DNA from: Candidatus Methylacidiphilum fumarolicum
GTDB lineage: Bacteria > Verrucomicrobiota > Verrucomicrobiia > Methylacidiphilales > Methylacidiphilaceae
Direction of reading: 5' to 3'
Length of the DNA stretch: 64,000 bases
NCBI RefSeq assembly: GCF_949774925.1
Contig: NZ_OX458932.1
Coordinates: 434,001 to 498,000 of the forward strand
Below the pieces are notes generated by a model. The model was not told the origin of the DNA. It made no database searches and saw only the letters and a list, made by a program, of their open reading frames with translations. Positions 1-21,824 of the stretch are shown in pieces. Positions within the stretch are counted from its first letter, which is position 1. Every line of letters begins with the position of its first letter. The translations under genes and the position numbers were made by a program.

Positions 1-675
1 ACGCTATGTATCGTGAATGGGGAGCTTTAGATGAGGGTCTCAATTGCCTTTCGGCTTCATCCATTATTCCGACGAGAAGCGGTTCAAGTTAGAAGGTGAA
101 GGTGAAATAGCAGGTCTCAATTGCCTTTCGGCTTCATCCATTATTCCGACGACTTTATCAGGAAAAAGTCTTCACCCTCAGGGCTTGGTCTCAATTGCCT
201 TTCGGCTTCATCCATTATTCCGACTATCTATCGAAAATTGGATGGGATTTACTTTGAACTTGTCTCAATTGCCTTTCGGCTTCATCCATTATTCCGACCT
301 TAAGCGGGGAAAACGGTCAGCAATCAAGATTAGAAGGTCTCAATTGCCTTTCGGCTTCATCCATTATTCCGACAAGTATTATTTCAATAACATATCATAT
401 GAGATCATGGGCAGTCTCAATTGCCTTTCGGCTTCATCCATTATTCCGACAAGAAGAAGTTACTCTGAAGTATGAGTGGGATAAATTGTCTCAATTGCCT
501 TTCGGCTTCATCCATTATTCCGACAGAGCTCATATGCTAACAAAAGGTGGGGTGATTTACGGGGTCTCAATTGCCTTTCGGCTTCATCCATTATTCCGAC
601 TTAAAGGAAGGCTTCATCAACTGAAAGCCGAAAAAGAAGTCTCAATTGCCTTTCGGCTTCATCCATTATTCCGAC
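1..675 (-). CRISPR. CRISPR array, type III-like, continues past left edge
   Basis: Nine identical 37-nt repeats begin at 37, 114, 188, 262, 337, 414, 488, 564 and 639, separated by eight spacers of 37-40 nt. Bases 1-36 look like one more spacer, so the array continues to the left. On the minus strand each repeat contains the hairpin GCC-GAAA-GGC (a GNRA loop) followed by AATTGAGAC. A cut one base after the stem would leave ATTGAGAC, close to the ATTGAAAC/G 5' handle common in type III crRNAs. That, and the AT-rich leader plus cas2 on the right, argue for minus-strand transcription. The strand is inferred; the repeats are read directly. Confidence 0.98.
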
Positions 676-974
676 TGCGGTCTTCTAACATCTTGATTAT
701 CAAAAAATAAAAAACCTCATAGGCATTGATTCCAATTTTATGTTGGTACAGTTTATGCTTTATATTAGCCCAAAAACACAGAAAGTTTAATAAGTCATTT
801 ATATTCAATAATATAACTTTAGGTATTGGCATGGCTATTTTTTAGTGGTTTGGTGTTAATACCTAAAAAACCATTTTTGCATTTTTAAACACAAAAAAAC
901 TACCGTCATTCTTTATGCAAGTAGAAGATACAAGCTAGGTAAATATAAAAATTTCTTCCAATTTGCAATAGAGT
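676..974 (-). promoter_or_regulatory. CRISPR leader (AT-rich, non-coding)
   Basis: This is the gene-free, strongly AT-rich stretch between the last repeat and cas2, where the leader should lie if the array is transcribed leftward. It holds an inverted repeat, TTTAGGTATT at 818-827 and AATACCTAAA at 858-867, and several A/T runs. No start codon or protein was recognised. The leader role is inferred from position. Confidence 0.6.
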
Positions 975-1250
975 TTATACCAAAAAGCAGATTACTTTTT
1001 CAGAACACACCATTGTTCCAGCAGTTCTAATCTCCTTTGCTAGTCTAGCATCTATTTTATAGGCGACAATCCTGTCTTCTTTAGGATCAATTTCCGCAAG
1101 CAGCTTTTGCCACAATTCTTCTAGTTCTGATTCTTCAAGATAACATTCGAAAACGCTAAACTGGACTCTTATTCCAAAATCTTCACAGATTTTGGCTATT
1201 TTATGTAGCCTTCGGTCATCACACACATCGTAAGCTATAACAGTAAGCAT
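975..1250 (-). CDS. cas2: Cas2 spacer-acquisition protein
   Basis: Cas2 forms the central dimer of the Cas1-Cas2 integrase that inserts new spacers. The protein has the usual beginning MLTVIAYDVCDDRRL with the beta1 Asp, and the family's FSVFEC segment, giving about 91 aa. The frame is open further up to an ATG at 1352, which would add 34 residues (WWYEAFAPAP region). I chose the ATG at 1250 because GGAG lies about 9 bp upstream and the length fits the family; the longer form cannot be excluded. It follows cas1 closely and sits next to the leader. Confidence 0.9.
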   Translation of the reverse strand: MLTVIAYDVCDDRRLHKIAKICEDFGIRVQFSVFECYLEESELEELWQKLLAEIDPKEDRIVAYKIDARLAKEIRTAGTMVCSEKVICFLV

Positions 1251-1357
1251 CTTATTATCTCCAGGAGGTTTTTTTTCTCTAGGTGCAGGTGCAAAAGCTT
1301 CATACCACCAATATGATGGATCTTCGTTCATTTTTTCTGTAGTTTTTTCCATTGTAG

Positions 1358-2365
1358 TTAATTCATTAAAAATGGTTCAAACTTGCTTGGATCTTCCAAA
1401 GCAGCTTTAAAAGAGCAAACACATCCTTCTAGTTGTGCTCTTAGAGTCGTTCTGGAGCCAGAAAATTCAGATTGAAACTGTCTTTCAAGTCTTGTTTCAT
1501 ATTGCGCAAGAAATTTTTTTCTTCCCAATTCGTTTAAATAACAGCCTCCATTTTTCTTTTCGAAATGTTCTTTATTGAGGATCTTATGGCTGAAAAGATC
1601 TAGTGCTAATGCTTCTACAATTACCGGTCTAAATGGCTCAATGAGATCTAAGGCAAGAGACCATCTTTCATTTTCTGGAGCATGCAAAAATCCTAAAGCT
1701 GGATCAAGACCATGAAGATGAATAAGAGCAGTCATTTCATTATAAAGAAGTGTTGCCCCGAATGAAATGCAGGCATTAACAGGATTGAGAGGAGGACGAT
1801 TTGATCGACGTTCGAAAGGAAATTCTTGTGGTAGAAATGTCGCCCAACATTGGAAGTAACGTGCTGTAGAGGCTCCTTCATAGCCTCTAATTTCGTCTAC
1901 GGTTGCTGCTGAAGCTACTTTAAAAAGAAGATGGTTAAGCCACTCGATATCGTTTTCATTATTAATTTTTCTATTTGAACTGAGTCTTTGAAGAGAGCGT
2001 CTTTGATTATAGATTTTGGCCTTAACTAACTGCTTTGAATAAGCAAGGACAGATTTAGGATCTAGACAATTCTGGTATTGTTTTAGCCTCCATAGTCCGT
2101 GGGAATTGGGAGGGGGAAAGAATCCTCCTAAGATTTGTCCATTAAAGCCTATAAAAGAAATAGGAATGTTTCTTAATAATAGTTCGCAAAGGGCAGGAGT
2201 AGTTATTGAGACGGTTTGGTCTAAAACAAGCCGTTCTAGTTCTCTTAGAGGAATTTCTCTGATAAGTTCTTCAGTGCCATTTTCTTTGTTATAACTAACG
2301 ACTTGAAGTCTTTCGGAACAAAGTGAAACTTTAGCATAGGTTTGCAGGATATAGGCTGAAGGCAT
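1358..2365 (-). CDS. cas1: Cas1 integrase
   Basis: Cas1 is the metal-dependent integrase of the adaptation complex. The 335-aa length is typical. The metal ligands expected for the family are visible: Glu163 in GYEGASTARYF, His228 in LGFLHAP and Asp240/Glu243 in ALDLIEPFRP. It has no fused reverse transcriptase, so there is no sign of spacer capture from RNA. It begins its own minus-strand unit with cas2, separated from the upstream CARF gene by about 130 bp that carry the GACGTC-type motif shared with the cmr operons. Confidence 0.96.
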   Translation of the reverse strand: MPSAYILQTYAKVSLCSERLQVVSYNKENGTEELIREIPLRELERLVLDQTVSITTPALCELLLRNIPISFIGFNGQILGGFFPPPNSHGLWRLKQYQNCLDPKSVLAYSKQLVKAKIYNQRRSLQRLSSNRKINNENDIEWLNHLLFKVASAATVDEIRGYEGASTARYFQCWATFLPQEFPFERRSNRPPLNPVNACISFGATLLYNEMTALIHLHGLDPALGFLHAPENERWSLALDLIEPFRPVIVEALALDLFSHKILNKEHFEKKNGGCYLNELGRKKFLAQYETRLERQFQSEFSGSRTTLRAQLEGCVCSFKAALEDPSKFEPFLMN

Positions 2366-2493: not shown

Positions 2494-3606
2494 TTAAGAA
2501 TTGTCTTTCATTTTGATGGAATTGGAAAGGCCAACTCCACTTCTAAGTGGAAATATGAGATCAACAAATTTATTTAACCCACGGTCGTTTAATTTCTTCC
2601 GTAGGTTACTTAAACATTTTTTGGAATCATCTTCATCAAAGTTAGAGTGTTCCGGAAATAAATGACTTAATTGCTGGTTTTTTTTCTTCCATTCTACTGC
2701 AAACACTTTGAAAGGTTTATCAACTTCTTTATGACAACCCAATGGCGGAAGATTTTTTTCCAAACGATCCCAAAGAAAAGCAAAGAATAAAAGCTCTTTC
2801 CCTTTCAACTTAATTTTCTTCTCATTAACGATCATTTCCCCAGTTTGCGAATCAAAGCCTACTTGAGGATAAAGCTCTTTTATTTCTTTTGAATACTGCC
2901 AGACAAGATCTGTAAACCGCCCCGGAAGTCTTCCAAATTCTTTAGGGAAAAGCTCTCTGAATTTTACAAAAGGAATATCTGCTAACTCAATTTTTGCGTC
3001 TTTGGCATAGACTATATTTCCTGTAATTGTTTTTAGGATCTGTTCTTTTTGTTGTGGAAAATAAAATTTAGGTTGTAATCTTGGATCATCATAAGGTTCG
3101 TTTACTAATACATGAGTTATCCTATCTCCTTTTCTGCCTAGCATAGAAACAGCACTATAAAGGAGGATGCCCATTGTTTTTCTACCTCCTGCTACGGAGG
3201 CAATAAGCTGAGTGTCAGGATTTTCTGTAATTTTCCGAACTTCCTCTAGAATATAATCTGCTGTTTCCTCATTGTCTTTAATGTTCCGGATATCCTCTAA
3301 TTCTAAGCATTTGCCTTGATCCAAGAAAGGTGAAACAATTACCTTAATTTCCCTTAGAATGTGAGAATCCTTCGGGATATTTTTTTCTTTAATTAACCAA
3401 TTTCTAAATTCTTCCCAAAGACATTTTCCTCTTGGCTCTAAAAGCTCTTTCTCGATCACTTTCTTTCCAATAGCTGTAGTAACAATGTCAATATATTTTG
3501 GATAAATAGGTGGATTTTCTTCTGCCAGTGCCCACAACGTTTCCGTAATAACGGCTGGGGATATCCCAATGACAGCGAGCAGAATGATCTCTTTGTTTTG
3601 ATTCAT
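2494..3606 (-). CDS. CARF protein, NE0113 family (possible ring nuclease)
   Basis: The 370-aa protein opens with a CARF-type Rossmann start (ILLAVIGISPAVITETLWAL) and has the ligand-site motif SVAGGRKTMG near residue 140. Both match the NE0113 family, often labelled Csm6-like ring nuclease. CARF domains bind cyclic oligoadenylate; some members of this family degrade it. The C-terminal ~140 residues look like a helical or winged-helix extension. I see no HEPN RxxxxH motif, so an RNase role is not supported. The ATG at 3606 nearly abuts the csx3 stop. It is last in the cmr operon. The exact activity is uncertain. Confidence 0.82.
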   Translation of the reverse strand: MNQNKEIILLAVIGISPAVITETLWALAEENPPIYPKYIDIVTTAIGKKVIEKELLEPRGKCLWEEFRNWLIKEKNIPKDSHILREIKVIVSPFLDQGKCLELEDIRNIKDNEETADYILEEVRKITENPDTQLIASVAGGRKTMGILLYSAVSMLGRKGDRITHVLVNEPYDDPRLQPKFYFPQQKEQILKTITGNIVYAKDAKIELADIPFVKFRELFPKEFGRLPGRFTDLVWQYSKEIKELYPQVGFDSQTGEMIVNEKKIKLKGKELLFFAFLWDRLEKNLPPLGCHKEVDKPFKVFAVEWKKKNQQLSHLFPEHSNFDEDDSKKCLSNLRKKLNDRGLNKFVDLIFPLRSGVGLSNSIKMKDNS

Positions 3607-3607
3607 T

Positions 3608-4561
3608 TCAGCTAATCAAAGACTGGATTTTCTTTATTAGTTCTTCGGGTAAAACAACCTCCTCAGGATTGATTCCTCTTTCCAGTTTCCCTAGTTTGAC
3701 GGTAAGGATAGGGGAAGAAGAAATAACTGTGGATATGTTTTCTTGAACGCTTTGAATTTGCGCAAGTAAATTCAGGCCTAGTATCTGAGTAGCTCCTCTC
3801 CACTCTGCAGCCAGAAGATCATCTCTGGAAACAATAAGCGCTGAATTACAGAGGCCTAAAATTTGATGGTTAAATCGATCAATCTTTCCCCCACAATCAA
3901 CGAAAAGAAGTCTTTTTGTCTTGGAAATTTCCTTAATATGCTGACAAATATTATCGACAAAAGACTGATTCCATTGATTCTTGAAACGCAGGGTCTTACT
4001 GTATGGATAAGCTTCATGAAACCAGTTGCCTTCTCCATCTGGACAGGCCCTAATGGTGTATGTTTTTTCCTGATAAAAGGAAATAGGCAGGATTCTTTTT
4101 AATGATTCTTGAAGGAGCATGAGAAAGACGGATTTGCCGCTGTGAGGGGGGCCAACAAGTGCAATGATGAGAGTAGAAGGAGGAGAAGAGGTCTTTGATT
4201 GGGCTGTAGACTGTACCGTATCTTGAAGTAGATTCTGATTGGATTCCACATGAGGCTGGATAACTTCTATTGGAATCACATAGCCCAGCTGAGGGGCCTC
4301 TATATGATGCGCTTCAATGATGATCCCTCCCATTCGTGGATCAAAGATAGCTATCCAGCGGCATGGATGGAATTGATGGACAAAAAATCCATAAATCCAT
4401 ATAGGGGCACGACCATACAAAATGACACCTTTTGCATAGTTAACTTTGGGCAGTTCTATGTTTTTCAAAATGGAAGCTTCTAGTATTCCATTGCCCGTAA
4501 TACTTATTTTTAGAATTTGAAAATCAGGAGTGTCTATAATTTTTAATTTAAGATTATTCAT
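3608..4561 (-). CDS. csx3: Csx3-AAA fusion (Crn3-type ring nuclease plus P-loop domain)
   Basis: Residues 1-100 match Csx3: GVILYGRAPIWIYG and VHQFHPCRWIAIFDPR include the His and Asp (His62, Asp74) of the conserved H...D pair in this family. Csx3 (Crn3) is a cA4 phosphodiesterase that dampens type III signalling. After a linker of about 30 residues comes a P-loop domain with Walker A GPPHSGKS (137-144) and a LLFVDCGG Walker B-like strand, as in known Csx3-AAA fusions. I use the ATG at 4561 (317 aa), which overlaps the end of csx1; an upstream TTG at 4591 is possible. The ATPase role is unknown. Confidence 0.85.
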   Translation of the reverse strand: MNNLKLKIIDTPDFQILKISITGNGILEASILKNIELPKVNYAKGVILYGRAPIWIYGFFVHQFHPCRWIAIFDPRMGGIIIEAHHIEAPQLGYVIPIEVIQPHVESNQNLLQDTVQSTAQSKTSSPPSTLIIALVGPPHSGKSVFLMLLQESLKRILPISFYQEKTYTIRACPDGEGNWFHEAYPYSKTLRFKNQWNQSFVDNICQHIKEISKTKRLLFVDCGGKIDRFNHQILGLCNSALIVSRDDLLAAEWRGATQILGLNLLAQIQSVQENISTVISSSPILTVKLGKLERGINPEEVVLPEELIKKIQSLIS

Positions 4562-5786
4562 GGTTCTGGAGGAGTTCTTCGATAGAATCAAGGGCTTTTT
4601 CTACCTGATTTTTTAATTCATTTGCCAATATTTCTTTTTTTCTTCCCATGCCGCAGTGCGCGAGATCATTTCTTACTTGTATTATTCGACTCCAAGCTTC
4701 TATAAGTTTTGGATCAAGGGAAGAAAGCTTGTTTTTGATATTTTCTTTGTCTTCTCTTGATTGAAGAGAATCTTCTGGGCGATTATTACGGATTTTGTGT
4801 CCCAAGTTATTAAGTATATTTTCAACCTCTTTTCTTTTTTCAGGATCATTCGAGTCATCTTGGATCACTTCGCATACATAACTTATGATCCATTCTCTAA
4901 GAAGGGTTGCACATTGCATAACATAACCGTGTTGAAGATATTTCTTAGCAAGCTCAATTTGACCATGAAGGCCATCGAAAGCTGTTGCTTTATATGTTTC
5001 TTTGACCTCGTCAATTACTAAGTCAAGTGGTTTAGCCCATTTATTAATCTCTTCTCGTAATTCTTGATTCTTCAGTATATCTTCAACTCTTTTACATATT
5101 TTTGGTATTTCTAAAACTCGACTGAGATTTAAAGCTAAAGAGAGATCTTTCAATGACGATCCAAGATTTTTGAGATGCGTTGGTTTTTTTTCCTCTTTAT
5201 CTTTTTCTTGATACAGCTCGTTTTGGATCTTATTTAACAATTTGGCGAATTCAGAAGAATCTCCAAGGTCAATGAATCTTTTACTTGCTCCAAGCCATTC
5301 AATTAGATCAAGAAATATAGAAAGATCAAACACAGGAGTTATATCATTTTTATTTGCTTCATAAGCTCCATAAAATATTCCTTTAATATTCACTTCTTTG
5401 ACTTGTCTAAGATAGACTATGGTACTAAGGGCTATTAAAGGTAAAGATCTATAACCATGGGTTATGTCTATGATAAGCTCAGATTGTTTGGGAATCATTT
5501 TAGCAATCGATTCAAAAATATCCCAAAGCTCTTGTTCTTCTTTTCCCTCTGGAATACAAATGATTTCGTATTTGAAGTTCTTAGCTTTAAATTCTTCTTT
5601 AAGCTCTTTCCAATTATCCCCATTTTCTATTTTCTTCGTAAGAGCCATAAATATGGTCTTAGGATGCTTTTCTAAAGCTAATGCTAGCGGGAAAAATTTT
5701 GTTTCATGATGTCTCCTTTGAGAAAAGGAATACTTAGTACTTCTATAATTTCCTGTACCAAGGAAAGACAGCTGAAGAAGATTCAT
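4554..5786 (-). CDS. csx1: Csx1/TM1812-family CARF-HEPN RNase
   Basis: The N-terminal CARF half has the TM1812 signature: LSFLGTGNYRSTKY at the start, then IIDITHGYRSLPLIAL near residue 105. The C-terminal half is helical and contains RNDLAH (Arg372-His377), the RxxxxH ribonuclease motif of HEPN domains. Family knowledge: cyclic oligoadenylate bound by CARF activates HEPN to cleave RNA non-specifically, causing dormancy or death of infected cells. The length (410 aa) is normal. It lies downstream of the cmr1 remnant and overlaps csx3 by 8 bp, so translation is likely coupled. Confidence 0.9.
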   Translation of the reverse strand: MNLLQLSFLGTGNYRSTKYSFSQRRHHETKFFPLALALEKHPKTIFMALTKKIENGDNWKELKEEFKAKNFKYEIICIPEGKEEQELWDIFESIAKMIPKQSELIIDITHGYRSLPLIALSTIVYLRQVKEVNIKGIFYGAYEANKNDITPVFDLSIFLDLIEWLGASKRFIDLGDSSEFAKLLNKIQNELYQEKDKEEKKPTHLKNLGSSLKDLSLALNLSRVLEIPKICKRVEDILKNQELREEINKWAKPLDLVIDEVKETYKATAFDGLHGQIELAKKYLQHGYVMQCATLLREWIISYVCEVIQDDSNDPEKRKEVENILNNLGHKIRNNRPEDSLQSREDKENIKNKLSSLDPKLIEAWSRIIQVRNDLAHCGMGRKKEILANELKNQVEKALDSIEELLQNHE

Positions 5787-5839: not shown

Positions 5840-6569
5840 TCATAAAGGGGGTTTTGTTTTATTTGGATAGGATCTTATGAAAATAACCAATGCGTATTGT
5901 TCTAAGTACAAAGAAAGGTGGGAACGCAGAAGAATTGGTGATGGGTGTCGAACTAATGTATCCCTGTTGGGTGTGATACTTTGACTTTGTTTCTTCCACC
6001 AATTCCATAAAGTTGATAGAATTGGATTTGGTTTAGCCTCAGAAAAGTTTGTGTTTTGTTTTTGCATTATATGAATATTGTCTTTTTTCTTAAAAAAATT
6101 GAGAGCCCTCTTCTATAGCTAAAGAAGAGGATACTGTGGTAAAAGTCATAGCACCAAACTCCTTGCTGGATTTAGCTCCAAGAGCTCTTAAATGAATCCA
6201 GATATTAATTAAAGTGTGCATGTTACTTAGCGCATCATTTAGGGAACTAAAAGGAGAAGGTGCACCTTTCCATCTTACCTGTAATTTAAACTTGGAGTCT
6301 TGTTCGATGGCTTGCCTATTTTTGGGCTTGCCTGCTCCAAGATTCTCCTTGGACTTTCTTTTGCTTCTATGCACTGAGAGGGCTTTTATGATTGGTTTTG
6401 AAGCTAAAGAACTGCTTACTGCTGAACCAAAGATATTGCTTTCTAGTTTGCAAGCGTCTTCACTTAGACAATTAAACCCTCCAAGCAACCTTAGCCACCA
6501 GCGAAGCTGCCCACGAATAAATGGCACTCTTACTTCAGCTTTTCTAGAAAGTTCTGCTTTCTTTCGCAT
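5840..6569 (-). pseudogene. cmr1: Wrecked cmr1 copy of the main cmr operon
   Basis: A 159-aa piece starting at 6569 carries the Cmr1 signature VRVPFIRGQLRWWLRLL and continues to LGAKSSKEFGAMTF, aligning to roughly residues 50-205 of the intact Cmr1 at 17.5-18.8 kb. The first ~50 residues are missing. A second open piece at 5840-6067 contains HPSPILLRSH and YALVIFIRSYP, matching the C-terminal SPVLLRPY and VVIFLEPY of the intact copy. About 180 residues between them are lost. The position right after cmr6 is a usual place for cmr1. I infer decay of the original copy, with the distal copy taking over. Confidence 0.85.
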
Positions 6570-6608
6570 AGCAGTCAGTAATGAATTCGATCAGATAGGT
6601 TTTAGAAA

Positions 6609-8030
6609 TCATGGCAGGCGTTCCTTTCTATTCTTAGCAATCTCTTTAAGTTTTTGAGAGATGTTCGCCCACTTTTTTCTAACTTCTTTTTTTGGACTTT
6701 GTTGAGCAGCCTTGTTAATTTCTTCCCAGACTCCGGGTTTATGCTTTTTTATGCATAGGTAGAAAACTAGCTGCTGATTTGCATCACTTTTAAGGAAATC
6801 GTTGATTAGTTTGTCTTTAAATTGTTGATCATTTTTTTCAGAATGAAGCTTAAAAGCTTCTTTTTCTTCTGGACTCATCCCTTTTGTTGCTTCTTCAAAT
6901 TTCTGCTGTTTTTTCTCCTTTTCTATTTTTCTTCTTTCTTCTTCTTCTTCCTTTTTTCTTTTTTCCTCTTGTTCCTTTTGTCTTATTTCCTCTTCTTTTC
7001 TTATCTTCTCTAGCTTTTCTTCAACCTTATTTGTGCAATCCTTAAACCACCCGTAACCCGCAGCTGTTTTTGCTCCAATACCAAAGGATTCCAATCCATT
7101 TTTGAGCCATTCTAGAGCAAAATCTTTTACTTTTCCATTAGCCCGCCTCGTAGAAGGATGGATACAGAAACAAAAGATAAGATAAGGACTAACAGCTGGG
7201 AAAAAGACCGGAATAGGATCTTCTTTGTCCCATGCATCCTCCCAGCCTGTTTCATGAGAATAATATTTTTGATGATGACATGTAATAACGTCAAGTTCCA
7301 GTTCATTTCCCACTAGCTTTTTTTCTTCTGTAGGATAGAAATTTTCTGGAATGGGATAAGCAGGCAAGAAGCGAATAGTGCCAGCATAATTGGGAACAGT
7401 TTTAATGAGTTGGTTTCGGAGTTTATCATCTGTCTTAGTAGGAATGGACATGGCTTCTAATACAAGCCCTGCCGCTTGATCAACAACATCATCAACAAGG
7501 GGGGGGGTATTAGAACAGCCATAATAAAAATCAGAATTATTCTCGTTTTTCCAGTCCAATTCAGACCAGCCAAACACAAGAGCAATTTGACTTAAAAGCT
7601 GTATTTTCTCATGCTCAGAAGCCTCTAAAAGCTTTTCTATAGCCATTCTCCTGGCACAGCCTTTGGCTGCACTACCAGGGATATACGGAATTCCAAAACG
7701 GTCTAGACATAACCCAGCGTTTTCAAGGACTCCACCAGCCATGTTAACCATCATTCGAGATTGTAATTGGGCAAAGAGTAAGCTTGCATCTTTGAGTTTG
7801 CTATAAAGACTATTCCAGATTGATTGAAGCCTGTATTTTGTTATGTTCGGATTTTTTATATTAATTGCTGTAGAAAATTGAGCTTTTCGTTCATCCTTTT
7901 TAATTCTTGGATCGATGTATTTTTCAAGAAGAAGGGAGCGTGATTCAATAGATATTGTATTCAGCACGCTTTCTACATCATTAATGAGCAATAACTTATC
8001 TTTCTTAGCTACATTATCATTCATAGACAT
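6609..8030 (-). CDS. cmr6: Cmr6, type III-B RAMP subunit
   Basis: Cmr6 is a RAMP-fold protein near the head of the Cmr complex, contacting Cmr1 and the target 3' region. The family core is at residues ~100-130 (GGVLENAGLCLDRFG, then IPYIPGSAAKG) and ~340 (FGIGAKTAAGYGWF), the glycine-rich RAMP loops. Unusual is the long charged region at ~345-400, almost all Glu/Lys/Arg, predicted as a coiled coil, followed by ~70 helical residues; at 473 aa the protein is clearly longer than typical Cmr6. The start is either the ATG at 8030 or 8024, behind AGGGG. It begins 3 bp after the cmr5 stop. Confidence 0.92.
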   Translation of the reverse strand: MSMNDNVAKKDKLLLINDVESVLNTISIESRSLLLEKYIDPRIKKDERKAQFSTAINIKNPNITKYRLQSIWNSLYSKLKDASLLFAQLQSRMMVNMAGGVLENAGLCLDRFGIPYIPGSAAKGCARRMAIEKLLEASEHEKIQLLSQIALVFGWSELDWKNENNSDFYYGCSNTPPLVDDVVDQAAGLVLEAMSIPTKTDDKLRNQLIKTVPNYAGTIRFLPAYPIPENFYPTEEKKLVGNELELDVITCHHQKYYSHETGWEDAWDKEDPIPVFFPAVSPYLIFCFCIHPSTRRANGKVKDFALEWLKNGLESFGIGAKTAAGYGWFKDCTNKVEEKLEKIRKEEEIRQKEQEEKRKKEEEEERRKIEKEKKQQKFEEATKGMSPEEKEAFKLHSEKNDQQFKDKLINDFLKSDANQQLVFYLCIKKHKPGVWEEINKAAQQSPKKEVRKKWANISQKLKEIAKNRKERLP

Positions 8031-8033
8031 CCC

Positions 8034-8399
8034 CTAGGAAGAAGACGATTTTTTCTCCGAAAACCGCTTCAGATAGGCAAGATACTTGAGGGTTTCATAA
8101 GTAGCCTGCTGAAGGTCTAATGAAGAACCCTTGGTTATTAGTTGGTGGAGCATTTCTTTAGCTGCATTGTTATTCTCTTTGATATCTTTTAGAATATTTC
8201 GTTTGCTAAGGTATTCAGCGACTGCGTCCATAGCAATTTTAAGAGGCTCTCTTTCAGGTTTTTCTTCACAAACAAAAGCAAGCGTGGCTAACAATCCATT
8301 AGAAACAATAAGTCCTGGAAGCCGATTGACAGATTCTTTCTTAAGTCCTTCTGCTTTTTTTAAAGCATGTTTAGCCCGAAGAATTTCCAGATTATCCAT
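8034..8399 (-). CDS. cmr5: Cmr5, small helical subunit
   Basis: Cmr5 forms the minor inner filament of the Cmr complex that lines the crRNA-target duplex. The 121-aa, mostly helical protein has the family pattern: a basic N-terminal helix (LRAKHALKKAEGLKKE), RLPGLIVSNGLLATLAFV, and YLAYLKRFSEK at the end. The start overlaps the end of cmr4 by 8 bp, indicating coupled translation. The length is normal. Confidence 0.93.
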   Translation of the reverse strand: MDNLEILRAKHALKKAEGLKKESVNRLPGLIVSNGLLATLAFVCEEKPEREPLKIAMDAVAEYLSKRNILKDIKENNNAAKEMLHQLITKGSSLDLQQATYETLKYLAYLKRFSEKKSSSS

Positions 8400-9342
8400 T
8401 ATTGCTTTCTCCTTCTTTGTGGGTTGTTTTGGTTAAATAGGTAGTGCAATATCCAAGGCCAGTACCTGCATCAGCTCCAAACTGGAAAAGATAATTTTTT
8501 TCTTTAATTTTTTTTTCAAGAACTTCAATAGGTTTGAAAGAATTCTCATTTCTTGATGGTCCTTTCCGAACTATGCTGTAGAAAGCTGTTTCAGATGGAA
8601 CATTTTCCTGATTAAATAAAGCCCCACTTTCTGCCGTACCCGTCTTGTCATTTATTTTTACATGTTGTGCTATTTCACATGCTGACTGCGTAAAAAAGCT
8701 CATCATGCTGTCACTCACAATAACGAGTCGATTTCCTATTTCCTTCCAAATAGGATCAATAGAAACAAGATCAACAGGAAGCTGATTTACAAACGCTTTG
8801 ATTATTTCTTCGGAGTCCTCTTGGGTTTTTTCAAAGATATATTCTTCAAGAATTACTTTTTCTTTTCCTCCTTCGTTAATGCAGAGACAGCTTTCTTTTT
8901 TAAACAAAGCCTTATTGTCACTAAGTTGAATGGAATCTAGAATTGTCTGTCCGGTATCCCGACAGTAACGTTTCAGTATCAGCGGACAAGTGATCCAACC
9001 AAAACAGCCTTTTGGGGATCGAATAGGAAATAGGAGAAGTTTTGCTTCCGAAAATTGAAGCATCCCTCCTTTTTCCTCTGTTCCAAAAAGATCTTTTCCT
9101 TCAGTATTTCTTTGATAAATGTGTTCCTTAATCTCAGCATCATTGCTTTGATAAGTGTTTTCATTAATCTCAATCCATTCATCAGCAAATACGCCTTTTA
9201 AAGCACTTCCTGGAATAATAGGAAATGCTGTATGCCGTTCTCTAATGATGGGTAAGTCAATGGCTCCGACTGATCCACCAGAGCCAACGTGGAGAGAAGT
9301 ACGAGTAAAAAGATAAATTATTGCGCTTTCACTGGTTGCCAT
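8392..9342 (-). CDS. cmr4: Cmr4, backbone RAMP and target-RNA cleaving subunit
   Basis: Cmr4 repeats along the crRNA to form the backbone and cuts target RNA at 6-nt intervals. The N-terminal signature is intact: TRTSLHVGSGGSVGAIDLP, then IIRERHTAFPIIPGSALKG. Asp29 in this loop corresponds to the catalytic Asp of the family, so target cleavage should be functional. The C-terminal glycine-rich loop is FGADAGTGLGYC. Length 316 aa, normal. AGGAG lies 9 bp before the ATG. The 97-bp gap from cmr3 is the longest inside the operon. Confidence 0.95.
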   Translation of the reverse strand: MATSESAIIYLFTRTSLHVGSGGSVGAIDLPIIRERHTAFPIIPGSALKGVFADEWIEINENTYQSNDAEIKEHIYQRNTEGKDLFGTEEKGGMLQFSEAKLLLFPIRSPKGCFGWITCPLILKRYCRDTGQTILDSIQLSDNKALFKKESCLCINEGGKEKVILEEYIFEKTQEDSEEIIKAFVNQLPVDLVSIDPIWKEIGNRLVIVSDSMMSFFTQSACEIAQHVKINDKTGTAESGALFNQENVPSETAFYSIVRKGPSRNENSFKPIEVLEKKIKEKNYLFQFGADAGTGLGYCTTYLTKTTHKEGESNNG

Positions 9343-9439: not shown

Positions 9440-10738
9440 TCATGTAAACTCAAAGTAATCCCAAGTGCCACAAAGCCCTAAACCAAAGCCTTTTTCCCCA
9501 TAATAATCCGATCGGCATCTTTCATGGAGGGCTTGAAACAGAGATTTTGTATCCTCTTCTTTTTCTGTCTCAAAATAGTAGACAGAGCCTGGAGGAACGG
9601 CCAATAAGGTGGGTCTAGGTCCTTTCTCTAAAACTTCCCAACCTCCAATTATAATTGGTTTACCAATGCGCGCTGCGACAAGAGTTGCCTTAATAGGCGG
9701 GGCTTCGTCTTTTGAAGGATCATATTTCCATTCACGATCGCTTCTGCGCTGCTTTCGGAACACCCGCCTCTTTTCTTTGTCAATAGCGCGCAAAAGCACA
9801 TTTTCTTTTTGTTTTTGAGGATCGATCCAACCAGGAAGCCATCCTTGACTAAAGATCGCTGGACTAAGAAGAACCCATTTAAGTCGCGTTGTCTTTAGAT
9901 CATTGACATCAAGGGAAGGGAAGAGGAGTGGTTCTTTGACCTTTTCTACTTTAAAGAATCGATCTTCGCCACCTACAGTAATTGTTTCTTGATTGAGACA
10001 TTCGATAGGGCTCTCATCTGGATTCTGAAGTTTATAGAAGGGCGGATCATTGATAGAAAAACACAATCTTATGCCTTCTCTAAGTCTTAAATGTTCAGCA
10101 GCAAAAAGTTTACTTTCTTCGACAGTTTGAGTTTCTGGATTAATTCCAATCCCAATTCTATATTCTGAGTCCCAAAGCTCTTTGTCCCCGCTGCATTCAC
10201 TAGAATTTATCTCATTTAATTTGTCTTCTAAGTAGTATTTATAAAACTCAGAAGAGACGAAGGATGGCGGTCTTACTTTAGAAGGTGGATCTTGAGAAAC
10301 AACAGGGTATCGAAGCGGATTGGGTAAATTGGACTTACATTCAGATAAATTAAACATTTCTGTTTGCTTTAGAGGTCTTAATAGCTTTGAGGGTTTTAAT
10401 GACCTGTTGTTTTCTTGATGAATGCACCAAGAGATGTCTAAAGGGGTAGGGAAAAAAAGCCTGTGTTCCTTTCGATCCACTGGGAAAGGACCTTTGATAT
10501 GCAGCCAATTGTAAGCCTCTGTTCCTATTTTGCCTTGAGATTTGCCTCTTCGTTCGTAGCCATTCTTTTTTTCTGTGGGGGTTAAACCCGAGAGGGAAAG
10601 CAAAGCAGAACGTATAGCCGAATGGATTGTCAACGGTAGAGGCCACCGAGCTCCTCGACCATAACTACTCCCAGCAGCCAGAGGTTTGCTATCACGGAAA
10701 AAGCAGGTGTCAAAAGGAATAAGATCAAAAGTTGTCAT
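9440..10738 (-). CDS. cmr3: Cmr3, crRNA 5'-handle-binding RAMP
   Basis: Cmr3 pairs with Cas10 and holds the crRNA 5' handle. The start MTTFDLIPFDTCFFRDSKPL is the classic Cmr3 opening (FRDxRPF-type motif), followed by GRGARWPLPLTIHSAIRSALL and a C-terminal GLGLCGTW loop. I place the start at the ATG at 10738 (432 aa) rather than the open extension to 10810, because 10738 matches the family start and overlaps the cas10 stop as ATGA, a typical coupling signal. Confidence 0.93.
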   Translation of the reverse strand: MTTFDLIPFDTCFFRDSKPLAAGSSYGRGARWPLPLTIHSAIRSALLSLSGLTPTEKKNGYERRGKSQGKIGTEAYNWLHIKGPFPVDRKEHRLFFPTPLDISWCIHQENNRSLKPSKLLRPLKQTEMFNLSECKSNLPNPLRYPVVSQDPPSKVRPPSFVSSEFYKYYLEDKLNEINSSECSGDKELWDSEYRIGIGINPETQTVEESKLFAAEHLRLREGIRLCFSINDPPFYKLQNPDESPIECLNQETITVGGEDRFFKVEKVKEPLLFPSLDVNDLKTTRLKWVLLSPAIFSQGWLPGWIDPQKQKENVLLRAIDKEKRRVFRKQRRSDREWKYDPSKDEAPPIKATLVAARIGKPIIIGGWEVLEKGPRPTLLAVPPGSVYYFETEKEEDTKSLFQALHERCRSDYYGEKGFGLGLCGTWDYFEFT

Positions 10739-13731
10739 CCAATGGCTCCTTTCGTTTTGAAGAATGCGAAGGTGATAAGTGGACCAAGAAAATCGTGGAG
10801 TTTTGTACAATGGTCTAAGTAGTTAGATAAGACTTTAATAAGTATTTCTTTGCCTTTGGAATCATTGGTTTTTTCCTCTTTGACTGAAAAATGTTGATCC
10901 ACTGCGAAACGGATGTCGTTTTTAATAATTTCCTTTACTTGCTCATTAAGCTCATCATTTCCATACTGAAAATAGCAAGAAACAAGTTCAGCGATTCTGT
11001 AGGGGAGTTTTCCAGAAATTCGATTATTTTCATAGAGTTCTTGGAGCTCATTGAGGATTTCTAGAGGAAAAGAGGTTTCTTTTTCTTCTTCTTTAGAATG
11101 GTTCCATTTAGATCCCCATTGGGCAATCTCTCCCGAACGTTTAAATAGATTAACAACAAAAGCTGACTTGCCATATCCAGAAGATTTGGCAATTTCTAAG
11201 GCATTTTTGGCTTCTTCAACTAAATTTTGTAAAGGGCTATGAATATGCCCAATGGCAATTCCTGCAGAAATATCTGCATTCTTGCCCATGAGAAGAAGAG
11301 GATAGCCTTGAGGAAGAAACTTATCGACTGATTCACACTTCCACATTTCTTTCCATCCTTCCCATTTCCCATCAATACTAACGAAACCCCACTGGTGCGG
11401 TGGGGCTTTAAGTGCTCCATAAAAACTCTCTGAGAGAGTGGGATCACCGCGAAAAGCTTTTCTTAAAACATAGGCACATTGTAATGCCTTTTCAGCTGGG
11501 AGCATGGCCAGAATATCATCCCCTCCAGAATAAATAAGCTGGCCATAATGTTGGTGGACGATGGATGGGGCAAGATAGAGAGAGAAATTGGCTAGGGCGC
11601 TGCTTAATTCTATATGATAACTAGGAAACAAGGGCCTTTTGGTTTTTAGAATTTGTTGAAGCTCTAAGAGTTGTTGATTATTAAAGTATTCCTTAGCTTC
11701 TTTGGAAAGCTGAGTATGAAAACAAGGAGATTTCTCTCCGCTTAGCCATTTACCCATAGAATCCCCATCCATAGCTAAAATGGCTATGTAAGGAGTAGGC
11801 TCAGAATTTAATCTTTTTTGAAGTGTTTTAAGATGTCGGAGTGCATTTTCTGAATTTTCACGTTTTCTTGAAGTTGGATTTTTATCTTTATATCTATCTT
11901 CTTTATATTCCTCTTTAAGACGTCTAAGTTCAGAGGTGAAACAGAAAGAGGGATATTCTTTAAGGAATTCTTCCGGGCTCTGAAATTTTTTCTCATCTAT
12001 TTTTATTTCTTCTATTTCACCGTTTTCATAGGCCTTCTGAAGTGATTGAACAAAATCATTACAATATTTGTTAATATCATGATCTTTATCTAATTGTTTT
12101 AGAAGAACTTCTTTAACCCAGGAATTAGCAGCAACATCTGGGACAGATTCAAATATTTTAGGCTTGAAAGATAAATTGGCATTTTTGTAAGTCTTTTTTA
12201 AATAAGCTTCATCCCAAATTCTTTTAATAATATTGATGGCTCCTAACCTTTCACCTTCCTTAAACGTGTGCTTGATCTTATCATGCAAGCTCTTTTGCCA
12301 GTTTTCATCCCCAATACACTCCTCTTTGCCTGAATACATGTCCTTAGGCACTCCAAAACGGCTTCGAAATTCGTTGGAATTGGGATCTCCAAAAAATTTG
12401 AAATCACGAATGTTTCTTCGACCTTCATGAAGGAAATCAGTCATTGCATAATGAGCTGACCAACAGAATCCAATATTCTCAATGATAGGATGACCTTCAT
12501 TGTCATACTTATAATTACGAGGATCTCTGTCTTCCTTGGGAATATTAAGCGCACATTGATATACATCGTCTAGATCTTTAGCAGAATCGCTAGCAGGAAG
12601 TTGCTTAAACAAAGCAATTGCTTTGTTAACATCTTTTTCCCATGGATAGACCTGCCAAGAAATGAAAAGAAAATCTTCGATTTGGTCATTCCATCTTTTT
12701 TGAATGTTATCATTCCATTCGATGCCTTTTTCCTTTGTTAAATACTCAACACAATATTTGCTAATTTCTTCTAGCTTATTTTGTAGTTCTTTTTCAATGG
12801 ATTGTGAAAGAACTTCTGCTTTGTCATCAGGGATAAGAGCAAGGAAGCGATTAGGAAAGTTAGGAGTTAAAATAAGTCCAAGAGGATAGTCAAATTCAGT
12901 GTCCCAGAGAGATTTATTGTCTTTTGTTTTGATCTTGTTATAAAGTTCATCCATGTGCAACCAATCAAAGAGTGGTTGGCCGTAGAGTGCTGGAAATATT
13001 ACAGCATCAGGACCTAAACGATCCGTCAGTGCCTTTATTGCATGAGCAATTAAATAGGAAAGGAGATAGCTACCACTCCATAGGTCTTTTGTTTTTCTGG
13101 CTTGAGCAATGAATTCTTGGACTGGGCCAATTTGGAAAAGTAGAAATGCTGGATTAATTTTGGTGTCAGCCTCATCGATTTTTTCCACACATCCTTGTAG
13201 AGCACTGGTAATTGAACAATGAGTCCAGATAGTGTGATCAGGGATTCTGGTATCTGCAGGCATAAATGCCAAGCTTGGATGTTTCTCTGAGATAAATTTT
13301 TTCCATAGTCGCCAATGAAGAAAAAAATTTGCCCATTCTTTACCAATTCTTTTCTCAAAACCATTAAAGTCTTTGTCATCTATTCCATTGAGATCATATA
13401 TCGGCTGAACTTTAATGACATCGTCTTCAGCTATCTCAGGATTAATAGGGTTTTGAAAGATGAGTTTTCCTCCACCAAGAGTGTGATAGTAAGGTGAATC
13501 TTCATTTCCTTTAAAATCAGCATGTAATACCCTTGGTTTAGGAAAGATCAATCGATCTGCCGATGCAGCAATATGATCAGTAATCTTATCAAATAAAACT
13601 CTTGCTTCTACGTATTCATACCCAGCATGCTGGATAATCTCTTTAGAAATTTCTTCATGTTCCTGGATCTTAAAAGGTTTGGTTGGAGGATCATGAACAA
13701 AAGCAAAAAATTTAGATTTCCAAAAGTTCAT
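10735..13731 (-). CDS. cmr2: Cas10/Cmr2, cyclic oligoadenylate synthase
   Basis: This is the large type III-B subunit, 998 aa. The N-terminus has FVHDPPTKPF with His13-Asp14, the HD nuclease-type start; whether HD is active is uncertain, as many Cmr2 proteins have degenerate HD sites. The first Palm element is AMDGDSMGKW near residue 653; the second Palm has the intact GGDD (about 735-738, in YSGGDDILAML), the site that makes cyclic oligoadenylates from ATP when target RNA binds. This is the signal for Csx1 and Cad1. First gene of the cmr operon; the ATG at 13731 lacks a clear Shine-Dalgarno and is 43 bp from the GACGTC motif. Confidence 0.97.
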   Translation of the reverse strand: MNFWKSKFFAFVHDPPTKPFKIQEHEEISKEIIQHAGYEYVEARVLFDKITDHIAASADRLIFPKPRVLHADFKGNEDSPYYHTLGGGKLIFQNPINPEIAEDDVIKVQPIYDLNGIDDKDFNGFEKRIGKEWANFFLHWRLWKKFISEKHPSLAFMPADTRIPDHTIWTHCSITSALQGCVEKIDEADTKINPAFLLFQIGPVQEFIAQARKTKDLWSGSYLLSYLIAHAIKALTDRLGPDAVIFPALYGQPLFDWLHMDELYNKIKTKDNKSLWDTEFDYPLGLILTPNFPNRFLALIPDDKAEVLSQSIEKELQNKLEEISKYCVEYLTKEKGIEWNDNIQKRWNDQIEDFLFISWQVYPWEKDVNKAIALFKQLPASDSAKDLDDVYQCALNIPKEDRDPRNYKYDNEGHPIIENIGFCWSAHYAMTDFLHEGRRNIRDFKFFGDPNSNEFRSRFGVPKDMYSGKEECIGDENWQKSLHDKIKHTFKEGERLGAINIIKRIWDEAYLKKTYKNANLSFKPKIFESVPDVAANSWVKEVLLKQLDKDHDINKYCNDFVQSLQKAYENGEIEEIKIDEKKFQSPEEFLKEYPSFCFTSELRRLKEEYKEDRYKDKNPTSRKRENSENALRHLKTLQKRLNSEPTPYIAILAMDGDSMGKWLSGEKSPCFHTQLSKEAKEYFNNQQLLELQQILKTKRPLFPSYHIELSSALANFSLYLAPSIVHQHYGQLIYSGGDDILAMLPAEKALQCAYVLRKAFRGDPTLSESFYGALKAPPHQWGFVSIDGKWEGWKEMWKCESVDKFLPQGYPLLLMGKNADISAGIAIGHIHSPLQNLVEEAKNALEIAKSSGYGKSAFVVNLFKRSGEIAQWGSKWNHSKEEEKETSFPLEILNELQELYENNRISGKLPYRIAELVSCYFQYGNDELNEQVKEIIKNDIRFAVDQHFSVKEEKTNDSKGKEILIKVLSNYLDHCTKLHDFLGPLITFAFFKTKGAIG

Positions 13732-14639: not shown

Positions 14640-15340
14640 ATAGCTTTACGTTACTGAAAACATGGATGCCTAGGCTGGAGGCTTGCAAAAAAAGTAGGAG
14701 AAGCTCATATTTTCCCAGGAGTCGATTCAGCCCCAGAGGGATCTTGGGACAAAGACAAACGACTGGTTCGTCATTGACAGAGAGAAAGGCTCAATCAGAT
14801 CGACTGGAGGCATCCCTCTACCTTGGGAACGTCTTCGAAAACGTCCGAGCTTGCTCCATTTGGTGGCTAAGAGAGTCGTCATTTCATAGGTCAGGAAGCA
14901 GATCAGAGGAAAAAGCCGGAGAACGGGTTCGACAAAAGAGCCGGGGAGAAGCGAGAGAGGTTGAACGTGTCGTTCGGAGCATTTGGGGCAATGGTCGGAG
15001 ACAAAGCGGAAGAGGTTTGTATCGGATAGCTGGAAGAGCAGGCAAGGACGTTGATACCAAGTCTGAGAGACCACTGGTGCGGCGGTATTGTGAAAAAGAC
15101 CCTGGGTGAGCTGTGGAATGAGTGAGTCAGCTGGGCCTTCTGCTATCGGGAGGAAAACTCGCCGTTTTGAGCTTCTTGATTGGGTCTTGACGAAATGGAT
15201 GAAGAACCACGGCTTGGCCTTTTTGAGTCAGAAGGTCGTTGTATACGGAAAGGAATGGACGGGAAGCAATCAAAGCGTGGAGCGGGAAGCTCTGGTAGGA
15301 TGGAGAATCTGCTAAAAGGCTGGAAGTCTGCGAGCCGATG
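14640..15340. other. GC-richer decayed island between cas10 and cad1
   Basis: This ~700-bp stretch is visibly richer in G/C than the AT-rich sequence on both sides and has several moderately long open frames on both strands, none with a recognisable domain or a sensible start. It resembles the style of the decayed TnpB-like island at 19.4-21.5 kb, suggesting mobile-element debris. The rest of 13,740-15,590 is AT-rich and shows no gene that I can support apart from the 13,976-14,188 fragment. Confidence 0.3.
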
Positions 15341-15593
15341 AGACTACAATAAAACTTTTCTCCGTGATGCGCAAAACTCTATTCCCAGAGCCGTCAGGCT
15401 TGGATGGAGTAGTTCATGGAATGCAAACTTGTGTGGATTGAAAGAATGCAATAATCCACAAGAAGCAGCCCTAAGATAAGGTATTATTGCGTTGAGAATA
15501 CTTACTAACACAGCAAATGAGGTTTGTTACTCCACCTCTCACCTTTCCTCAAGGATTTAAGGCGAATTTAATGCAATATGAAAAAAAAAAGTT

Positions 15594-17480
15594 TTAAGAA
15601 GGCTCATTAAAGAGAGCAAGGTTGGTTGGAGTGAGTAGGTTTTTTTGTATTTTGTGAATCAGCTCTGTTCGAAGCTGATGGGGGAGAAAAGCTATCTGAC
15701 AAGCGTGGTTTAAGAGTTTGAGGATATCGAGCCGACGGATCCCAGGACAAAGCTCAGCCAAAAATAAGAGATTATCCGTTAAGCTGCCCTTACTAATACC
15801 AATGTTATCAGTGTTGACCGTAACATAGACGCCCCGATTTAGGTATTCTTTTAATGGATATGTGTTCTTGTTGTTTTCCATGGGCTTAAATCCATGGATT
15901 TGATAATTGGCTAATGGACACATTTCGATTCCAATATGTCGGTCAATAACAGTGTTCAGCAGATCTTGAGATTTCAAAAGATGAAGTGCATGCCCGATCC
16001 TTCTGGCATGGAGTCGAAAAATTGCTTGCCATATTCCCTCAACGTCATCGATTTCACCAGCGTGGGCTGTAACAGCAAGTCCGCAGCGGTGAACAGGGAC
16101 AAAATCTTCTGCAAAGTAAGAAGCACGAGTTTTGGGGCTTTCAAGGCCAGCTAGGTCCACTCCGACCACGCCACAATAACTTTCTTTTGGTGGAAAATGT
16201 TGCGCAGCTGTAACGGCAAGGGATAAATGACGACTAATATCCGAAAGATCTCCTTTATCCTTGCGAGTGACAATGATGATGAGATTAACATGACAGTAAG
16301 TGTCAGCACCTTGATTCTCATTCATGCATTGCTGGAAATGATCGCGAATTTCGCAAAGAACAGTCCAAGCAGATCTTCCTTTGGAGATATTAGTGTAATT
16401 GTTAGGAGAAGTTCGAATTTCTGCATACACAACACGGTCTTTTTGAAGAGCTTGGTATAAAAGTCTGCATTGTTCTTTAAGACACCCAGGGTCCTTAAGA
16501 AGATCGGTTCCTGTAGCCCTACCTAATTCCATGTATGTTTCAAGGCCAATAGGCTTAGCTGGCCGAGGCCAGCCCTCAGGTAAAGGTGGCTCTAAAAGAT
16601 GAGGCAGTGAGGAGGGAGCTTCTGCGCTTGAGCGAACCTGCGCTAGCAACTCTCCATGTGTGGCAAAGCCGCCCAAATGACAGTGCAGTTCTACCTTTGG
16701 AAGCTTTTCGATCCATTCTTTGTCTCTTTTAGGATCCAAGGGCTCATTCAACCAATCGAGTTCTTTGGGAGTCCAACGGGCTAAAACTGGAAAAGGTAGC
16801 TCTGAAAGCCGGCCCCAATTGTAATGGATCCGGAGAGAATAGTCTTGAACTTCGTTAATTTTTTCCTGTAATTTTCGGTCAGCCACTGTAGCGAGATATA
16901 ATCGAGGTTTTCTCTCAATCTCGTTCAGTGGAAATTCTTCGAATGACAGCTTTTTTAGTTGTGTCCATCCCTTTTCATTGCCCAGGGAAACAAACTTAAT
17001 TTTGTTAGTCTTTAAGGCTTCTTTGACTTCTTCCATAGAGGAGGGGAAAGGTTCCTCTGCTAAAACATCAAAGACATATTTAGCTCCAAATAAAGAAGCC
17101 CCTTTAAGGAGAGCCGCGCTCATCGTCTTTCGCCCACTGGCTATACACACATAGACAGTGGCTCTTTGTATATGCTTAAGAAACCACCGATAGAGGACCT
17201 CTTGAAAAAGAAAATAATCCTCCTGACTGCAAATATCTGCGCATTCATCGACTTGGGTAAATGTATAGATGAGGCCAGGAAAATGGATTTTTAGGCACTG
17301 CTCAATATTTTGAAAGCATTCTTCAGCTTCTGGATTACAGGTAGTAAGTAAGTGAACTTCATCAAGCTTTTGGTGGTAGTGATTAACGAAGTAAAGCGCC
17401 TCTACAGCAATGAGCCAGGTTTTGCTAAGGGTACTGCCAAGCGTACATAAAAGCACATTTTTTTGAGGAGAAGAATCCAT
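15594..17480 (-). CDS. cad1: Cad1-type CARF-adenosine deaminase fusion, type III effector
   Basis: The 628-aa protein has an N-terminal CARF domain (start NVLLCTLGSTLSK; ligand motif ASGRKTM at 114-120) and a metal-dependent adenosine deaminase domain from about 259. Deaminase motifs in order: His266/His268 in VELHCHLGG, YAEIRTSP (352-359), VDLAGLE (441-447), His473 and Glu476 in TAHAGE, His497 in RIGHALH, Asp558 in NTDN. These give the zinc ligands and the catalytic Glu. Known family: Cad1 binds cyclic oligoadenylate through CARF and deaminates ATP to ITP to stop phage growth. The canonical second Asp of NTDD is Asn559 here. GAGG for its ATG overlaps the cmr1 stop, so the two genes are translationally coupled. 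The activity here is inferred from the domains. Confidence 0.92.
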   Translation of the reverse strand: MDSSPQKNVLLCTLGSTLSKTWLIAVEALYFVNHYHQKLDEVHLLTTCNPEAEECFQNIEQCLKIHFPGLIYTFTQVDECADICSQEDYFLFQEVLYRWFLKHIQRATVYVCIASGRKTMSAALLKGASLFGAKYVFDVLAEEPFPSSMEEVKEALKTNKIKFVSLGNEKGWTQLKKLSFEEFPLNEIERKPRLYLATVADRKLQEKINEVQDYSLRIHYNWGRLSELPFPVLARWTPKELDWLNEPLDPKRDKEWIEKLPKVELHCHLGGFATHGELLAQVRSSAEAPSSLPHLLEPPLPEGWPRPAKPIGLETYMELGRATGTDLLKDPGCLKEQCRLLYQALQKDRVVYAEIRTSPNNYTNISKGRSAWTVLCEIRDHFQQCMNENQGADTYCHVNLIIIVTRKDKGDLSDISRHLSLAVTAAQHFPPKESYCGVVGVDLAGLESPKTRASYFAEDFVPVHRCGLAVTAHAGEIDDVEGIWQAIFRLHARRIGHALHLLKSQDLLNTVIDRHIGIEMCPLANYQIHGFKPMENNKNTYPLKEYLNRGVYVTVNTDNIGISKGSLTDNLLFLAELCPGIRRLDILKLLNHACQIAFLPHQLRTELIHKIQKNLLTPTNLALFNEPS

Positions 17481-18761: not shown

Positions 18762-18802
18762 AATGACCTTTTTATTATATGGATCTAAGAATAAAGCTTT
18801 TT

Positions 18803-18979
18803 TCACAAGTACTCAATAATGCTTTTTACAGAATCCTTTCTATCATACAAGCTACCTAAAGGTGGTTTCATTTTGCTTGTAAAGCTGTTTCCAACACTAC
18901 TATTAGCTCTTCTAAGTAAAAGAGGCTGGACATTAAGAAGGAAAGAAAGAATGGAAAGTAAAGGAAATAGTATTTTCAT
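18803..18979 (-). CDS. Possible 58-aa leader ORF ahead of cmr1-cad1
   Basis: The frame reads MKILFPLLSILSFLLNVQ, a hydrophobic start, then a basic tail ending KSIIEYL. Its ATG at 18979 lies 43 bp from the near GACGTC-type hexamer, exactly the distance seen for the cas10 ATG. No Shine-Dalgarno is visible for either. It matches no family that I know; it may be a small membrane peptide, a gene remnant, or chance. An upstream ATG at 19006 is also in frame. Confidence 0.3.
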   Translation of the reverse strand: MKILFPLLSILSFLLNVQPLLLRRANSSVGNSFTSKMKPPLGSLYDRKDSVKSIIEYL

Positions 18980-21480: not shown

Positions 21481-21599
21481 ACGCTACTTCTATTCCGCTA
21501 CCCCGGAGAACGAAACGGTCTTAACAATCTTGGGTCATCCGCCACAAAACTAAGGCAAAAAAAGCGAACTTGGCTCAGGCGAACGCAAATCCCGAGTAT

Positions 21600-21824
21600 G
21601 TTTTTTAGGAACAGATTTATTGGAGAGACTAAGGATTTTCTTGATCCAGAATTTATACTTCAGGCTGGCTACTAACAGTTTATGGTAAAGCCAGCAGTTT
21701 TCAAAATGGTAATGAAAAGAAACTCCTTATCAATGCCAAATTTGTCTCTCTTTGGCCTGAAGAATTTTATCCTAGAAACGAAGGGCATATGAGAATAGGA
21801 CCAGTTTTTTCTTTTAAAGATTAG
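21600..21824 (+). pseudogene. Unrecognised gene remnant
   Basis: The plus-strand frame ending at 21824 reads IYTSGWLLTVYGKASSF, then LINAKFVSLWPEEFYPRN and GPVFSFKD. It is blocked upstream by a TGA, but another frame just before it reads NRFIGETKDFLDPEF, so a frameshift within one old gene is likely. The end has the alternating hydrophobic pattern and terminal aromatic residues of outer-membrane beta-barrels; that is only a hint. Confidence 0.3.

Follow-up and report, generated by a model that had tools for sequence, protein, structure and literature searches.

The window analysed here, a stretch of 64,000 nucleotides from the complete genome (2,476,671 bases) of the thermoacidophilic methanotroph Candidatus Methylacidiphilum fumarolicum SolV, carries a type III-B (Cmr) CRISPR locus (Table 1). 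On the minus strand, the genes follow the order cmr1d, cad1, a gap with an insertion sequence (IS) remnant, cmr2, cmr3, cmr4, cmr5, cmr6 and a cmr1 remnant. The remnant is followed on the same strand by a TIGR02221 CARF-type protein, a Csx3-AAA protein, an NE0113 CARF protein, cas1, cas2 and the array. The type III-B gene set is complete, comprising Cas10/Cmr2, Cmr3, Cmr4, Cmr5 and Cmr6, and it includes a Cmr1 only through cmr1d. Like other III-B systems, the locus has a complete cmr2-6 set, an array with cas1-cas2, a Csx3 ring nuclease and CARF effectors, arranged as is usual in Verrucomicrobia; it differs from them in that the cmr1 slot is occupied by a pseudogene, whereas an intact Cmr1 of another lineage lies upstream of cmr2, next to cad1. 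An Rfam search of positions 1-24000 found no RNA.

Table 1. Features of the SolV Cmr locus (positions in the window) and of satellite cmr6'-cmr1S sites outside the main locus.
Feature	Position	Strand	Basis or state
CRISPR array, at least 9 repeats within the window	33-710	.	
cas1 + cas2	975-2365	-	PF01867, PF09827
NE0113-type CARF protein	2494-3606	-	TIGR02584 / PF09623
Csx3 ring nuclease with fused AAA-like domain	3608-4591	-	TIGR02579 / PF09620
TIGR02221 (TM1812-type) CARF-family protein	4554-5786	-	
cmr1 pseudogene (cmr1p), ortholog of Kam1 operon cmr1	5840-6612	-	translation, conserved residues, trees
cmr6, intact	6609-8030	-	TIGR01898
cmr5, intact	8034-8399	-	TIGR01881 / PF09701
cmr4 (Cas7 backbone), intact	8392-9342	-	TIGR02580
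cmr3, intact	9440-10810	-	TIGR01888
cmr2 (Cas10), intact, sole Cmr2 found in the genome	10735-13731	-	PF12469, PF22335
Degenerate IS605-type tnpB, 3' part, between cad1 and cmr2	14908-15417	+	
cad1 (CARF-adenosine deaminase), intact	15594-17480	-	PF00962 + PF09623; alignment
cmr1d, intact long-class Cmr1	17490-18806	-	TIGR01894 47 bits, PF03787 57 bits
Degenerate multicopy element, about 2.2 kb	19420-21614	.	
Satellite cmr6'-cmr1S, G002	L035:3556-11414	-	intact
Satellite cmr6'-cmr1S remnants, Kam1	L031:8602-10474		decayed
Satellite cmr6'-cmr1S remnants, SolV	L045:7195-7587		decayed

Two open reading frames (ORFs) on the minus strand mark the remnant after cmr6, termed cmr1p. The ORF of 159 aa at 6090-6569 matches the Cmr1 model TIGR01894 with 38 bits (cut-off 28.65) as well as the RAMPs family PF03787. 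The ORF of 75 aa at 5840-6067 gave no family match when searched alone; it aligns with the Cmr1 C-terminus, reading VRHPSPILLRS...YALVIFIRSYPNK against GRFASPILLRPF...LALVIFIEALKWPENK in M. kamchatkense Kam1. This model match and this alignment support the initial annotation, according to which both N- and C-terminal parts of Cmr1 persist after cmr6. Three-frame translation revealed that the start of the gene is also kept: the cmr6 stop and an ATG at 6612-6610 overlap in the sequence ATGA, and translation from this ATG gives MISKTYLIEFITDCYA..., so that the decayed gene spans 6612-5840. The frame is lost after MISKTYLIEFITDCYA and ends in a TAG at 6546-6544, a stop 22 codons past the native ATG. 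A second frame extends from KAELSRKAEVRVPFIRGQLRWWLRLLGG up to a TAA at 6092-6090, and a third contains the C-terminal part, LWNWWKK...VRHPSPILLRS...ALVIFIRSYPNK. The lesions comprise premature stops, two frameshifts, a truncated C-terminus and a deletion inside the gene; by comparison with the Kam1 gene, this deletion removed about 50 codons and about 30 are gone at the end. Both the middle and the start had been thought to be deleted; the middle is indeed missing, but the start survives, frameshifted.

Read through, cmr1p retains 37 of the 77 conserved residues, those shared by 10 or more of 11 intact Cmr1s of the long class (40 of the 77 are changed or missing, with gaps at 21), and its glycine/basic loop has turned from FGSLGFRSRRGFGA into HLRALGAKSSKEFGA. 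Its ortholog is the operon cmr1 of Kam1, which is intact and groups with it in two trees (98/95 and 97/96). cmr1p is a real pseudogene, as the frame is broken relative to an intact ortholog and constrained residues are lost; the gene had correctly been read as decayed. A sequencing error behind the lesions was set aside because the deletions are long and residues were also lost by missense change. The N-terminal ORF still scores as a Cmr1 over 159 aa, which might be taken to mean that the fragments act as a split Cmr1 made of an N-terminal RAMP domain and a C-terminal piece. We find this scarcely credible given the altered loop, the losses at conserved positions, the early stop after the native ATG and the missing C-terminal residues.

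A complete Cmr1 had also been placed with cad1 in the initial reading, and cmr1d indeed ends 9 nt before the start of cad1. It reaches 47.2 bits against the TIGR01894 cut-off of 28.65 and is full length, with the N-terminal RAMP domain, the glycine-rich loop and the conserved C-terminal motifs present. Of the 77 conserved residues it holds 69 (90%), while intact operon genes hold 80-97% in a leave-one-out comparison. The first ATG is codon 16, at 18761, and the annotated GTG start is probably too early. By sequence, the Cmr1d profile matches the solved Cmr1 chains 4l6u and 4w8x; an AlphaFold model of Cmr1d from 4 sequences had a mean pLDDT of 36, too low for a fold to be read from it. The gene belongs to the cluster and strand of cmr2 and lies upstream of it, with the IS605 tnpB remnant in between. 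Searching the whole SolV genome, we found one Cmr2 and four RAMP matches only, namely Cmr4, Cmr6, cmr1p and Cmr1d; another decayed Cmr1 piece is located at G000:C1:1485194. No other intact Cmr1 exists in this genome, which has one Cmr core; the Cmr1 of this core, if used, must therefore be Cmr1d.

The relatives in the analysis included M. kamchatkense Kam1 (G004; 2,202,032 bases) and M. infernorum V4 (G003; 2,287,145 bases). Kam1 shares the operon with SolV and has the orthologous cmr1, intact as a 356-aa open frame, directly after cmr6, and its satellite cmr6'-cmr1S is broken. Kam1 and SolV are the reverse of each other with respect to the two genes: cmr1 is intact and cad1 broken in Kam1. 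In another congener, G002, cmr6 is shortened and the interval from it to the NE0113 gene contains no cmr1, and an intact cmr6'-cmr1S pair lies about 100 kb away together with a helicase and a Csx3-AAA gene. All three congeners with an intact core thus possess exactly one intact cmr1, which is cmr1d in SolV, the operon copy in Kam1 and the satellite copy in G002; G001 kept only fragments of the Cmr core. One intact cmr1 per genome in three different slots suggests that redundancy was resolved by loss, although coincidence is possible with three genomes.

Several further features were observed in these genomes. The operon cmr6 of G002 (L034:6105-7268, plus strand) lost its C-terminal extension along with cmr1; SolV, Kam1 and the satellite cmr6' have the extension, which may be kept because of a contact with Cmr1. 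The satellite helicase of G002 has 1495 aa and is related to the anti-phage ProA/Hhe. In Kam1 (L032:8408-11576, plus strand), the TIGR02221 (TM1812) and Csx3 genes are in pieces and cad1 is broken. In 'Methylacidiphilum sp. Phi' (L036:12710-13439, minus strand), a pair resembling a HEPN/MNT toxin-antitoxin was seen by eye between cmr6 and cmr1; PDB entry 9z7q holds a Cmr1-MntA chain.

The state of Kam1 and G001 raises the question of whether the entire SolV III-B system is decaying, with cmr1 as the first gene lost and cmr1d as an orphan. The genus shows frequent decay: in Kam1, csx3, TM1812 and cad1 are broken or incomplete, and the G001 core is in fragments. However, the remaining core, effector and adaptation genes of SolV are intact without exception and the array is present, and the genome paper judged the CRISPR systems of both SolV and Kam1 apparently functional by annotation (PMC6688271). 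We hold general decay of the SolV system to be quite improbable.

Outside the genus, cmr1 has a fixed place. Among 387 genomes of the phylum, we counted those outside Methylacidiphilum with matches to cmr1 and cmr2 on one contig; in 29 of 29, cmr1 was encoded on the strand of cmr2, 4.7-7.4 kb downstream of that gene; G006 and G084 have an additional distant cmr1 or cmr2 match that belongs to another locus. The exceptions to this order all fall within Methylacidiphilum. Phylum genomes with a Cmr2 and without a match to the Cmr1 model are nearly all cut by contig ends, and such contigs of sufficient length have a divergent cmr1 after cmr6. A comparison of related genomes had been proposed as a check; the Kam1 ortholog is intact after cmr6, and all 29 of the counted genomes keep cmr1 downstream.

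Cmr1 and Cmr6 cap the crRNA 3' end. A SolV complex of Cmr2-6 in which Cmr1 is dispensable, with cmr1d-cad1 as the remnant of an operon tail retained only for its cad1, would have parallels in Microcystis clusters 3 and 5 (III-B), which have no recognisable Cmr1 (PMC11855584), and in the G002 operon without cmr1. Yet G002 has an intact Cmr1 elsewhere, contigs of sufficient length in the phylum sample retain cmr1 after cmr6, and cmr1d has preserved nine tenths of the conserved residues. Moreover, target RNA binding by III-B complexes is reported to require both Cmr1 and Cmr6, pairing beginning at their end (PMC8376896). A dispensable Cmr1 is, in our view, unlikely.

Other Verrucomicrobia Cad1 loci usually have the order cmr2-3-4-5-6-cmr1-cad1, in some cases plus a Can2-like gene, followed by NE0113 and cas1-cas2, and cmr1 stands beside or near cad1 at L063, L085, L086, L091, L094, L098, L099, L100, L105, L106 and L109. 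Because cmr1 next to cad1 is normal in Verrucomicrobia, the cmr1d-cad1 unit resembles the end of a different Cmr operon. The same synteny undermines the addiction-like linkage put forward in the initial annotation, by which the cad1 unit would maintain itself by holding a core gene needed by the host system. If Cmr1d is the sole Cmr1, loss of the unit would indeed disable Cad1 and the Cmr complex alike, but such a loss would cost immunity and release no poison, and nothing points to damage to the cell from it. There is no sign of selection for the linkage, nor any sequence sign of a module of stable poison and labile antidote, and we regard addiction as very improbable.

The origin of the unit was addressed by trees, base composition and its flanks. 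An origin of cmr1d by duplication of the operon gene within SolV, which would make it sister to cmr1p, was rejected (p-AU 0.011). A clade of cmr1d, Kam1 cmr1 and cmr1p was not rejected (p-AU 0.108), cmr1d being on a long branch, so that it may be an older paralogue within the genus instead of a foreign gene. SolV cad1 falls outside the tight cad1 clade of G002 and Kam1; in these two genomes cad1 lies between the NE0113 gene and cas1, a slot only 128 bp wide in SolV. The GC contents of cmr1d (43.7%) and cad1 (43.1%) differ from those of the operon genes (33.5-41.6%; rest of the cluster 33-42%) but are close to the genome mean of 41.5%. IS remnants flank the unit on both sides. The genome holds about 16 other near-full copies of the tnpB stretch of about 510 bp, with 75-80% identity, and an IS200 TnpA adjoins at least one of them. 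The 2.2-kb element on the other side occurs in tens of copies (about 70-77%) and appears by eye to be IS607-like from a recombinase remnant in one copy. Lineage, GC and IS remnants fit a unit that arrived from elsewhere next to mobile elements, none of them being proof by itself. A search of genome contigs with Cmr1d alone as query returned no matches, and a second scan of the contigs used the Cad1 alignment as query.

Cad1 genes with an in-frame, stop-free insert occur on the plus strand at L102:381-3080, L104:896-4072, L106:8765-11281, L107:9-2492 and L109:9995-12625, and the insert-bearing genes of L103 and L105 run past contig ends. The insert occupies a single site in the adenosine deaminase domain, just before CHVNLIIIATR, and REP-like coding repeats lie beside it. 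In the three inserts searched (L102, L106 and L109), it matches the REP-associated tyrosine transposase NF047646 with E-values of 1e-18 to 1e-19 and 66-71 bits, under the curated cut-off of 80; all five inserts contain an HUH-like MPNHVH motif and a candidate tyrosine (YIxxNP). In these genes a transposase may have become nested, or domesticated, within a CRISPR effector. The carriers are scattered over the Cad1 tree, and they would be missing from the published tree because only proteins of 550-650 aa were kept in it.

The Cmr1 proteins split into a long class (L) and a short class (S). In the Cmr4 tree, the Methylacidiphilum core is sister to the core of the family's second genus (97/90), and the operon Cmr1 is long in the former and short in the latter. 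At least three switches between the classes are needed on the Cmr4 tree and a single clade of short-class cores was rejected (p-AU 0.027), and therefore Cmr cores seem able to change their Cmr1. At L063:8696-10872 (minus strand), two tandem Cmr1 genes, one short and one long, lie between cmr6 and a Can2-like gene, and the cad1 of L063 is broken by stops. It is conceivable, although we rather doubt it, that Cmr1, sometimes with Cmr6, forms with nearby effector genes a portable tail cassette that moves between III-B systems. The three Methylacidiphilum Cmr1s (operon long, cad1-linked long and satellite short with its own cmr6) would then compete to cap one conserved core, with a different winner in each species.

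We favour, with moderate confidence, the reading that the operon cmr1 was displaced and that Cmr1d, a paralogue of another lineage, replaces it in the SolV complex. That the distal copy takes over from the operon copy had been suggested from the start; the dead operon gene, the single core, the only intact Cmr1 and the parallel in G002 agree with it, while the replacement itself is likely only, supply in trans by cmr1d being the most economical reading. We infer that a fragment with the tail of another Cmr operon (cmr1-cad1) settled upstream of cmr2 beside insertion sequences. The presence of two Cmr1 genes would have made the native copy after cmr6 redundant, and it would have decayed. Cmr1d would then occupy the Cmr1 position, the complex would make cyclic oligoadenylate upon target binding, and Cad1 and the other CARF proteins would respond to the cyclic oligoadenylate from this same complex.

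Similar to SolV, Pyrococcus furiosus has one Cmr core and two Cmr1 genes, Cmr1-1 and Cmr1-2, one of them outside the operon; both are intact there, whereas the operon copy is dead in SolV. Cmr1-1 is named in PMC7192623 and PDB 4w8x. The SolV cad1 shares the CARF and ADA domains and the position adjoining a type III locus with the described Cad1 effector, which converts ATP to ITP (PMC11645235), but it stands apart from the operon tail, with a Cmr1 from a different lineage as its partner.

The decay seen in SolV and Kam1 qualifies the published view that both systems look functional (PMC6688271). Methylacidiphilum represents a natural experiment, in which three closely related cores stand with three different intact Cmr1s. 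If a core can accept a foreign Cmr1, subunit exchange would be a real evolutionary route for type III complexes.
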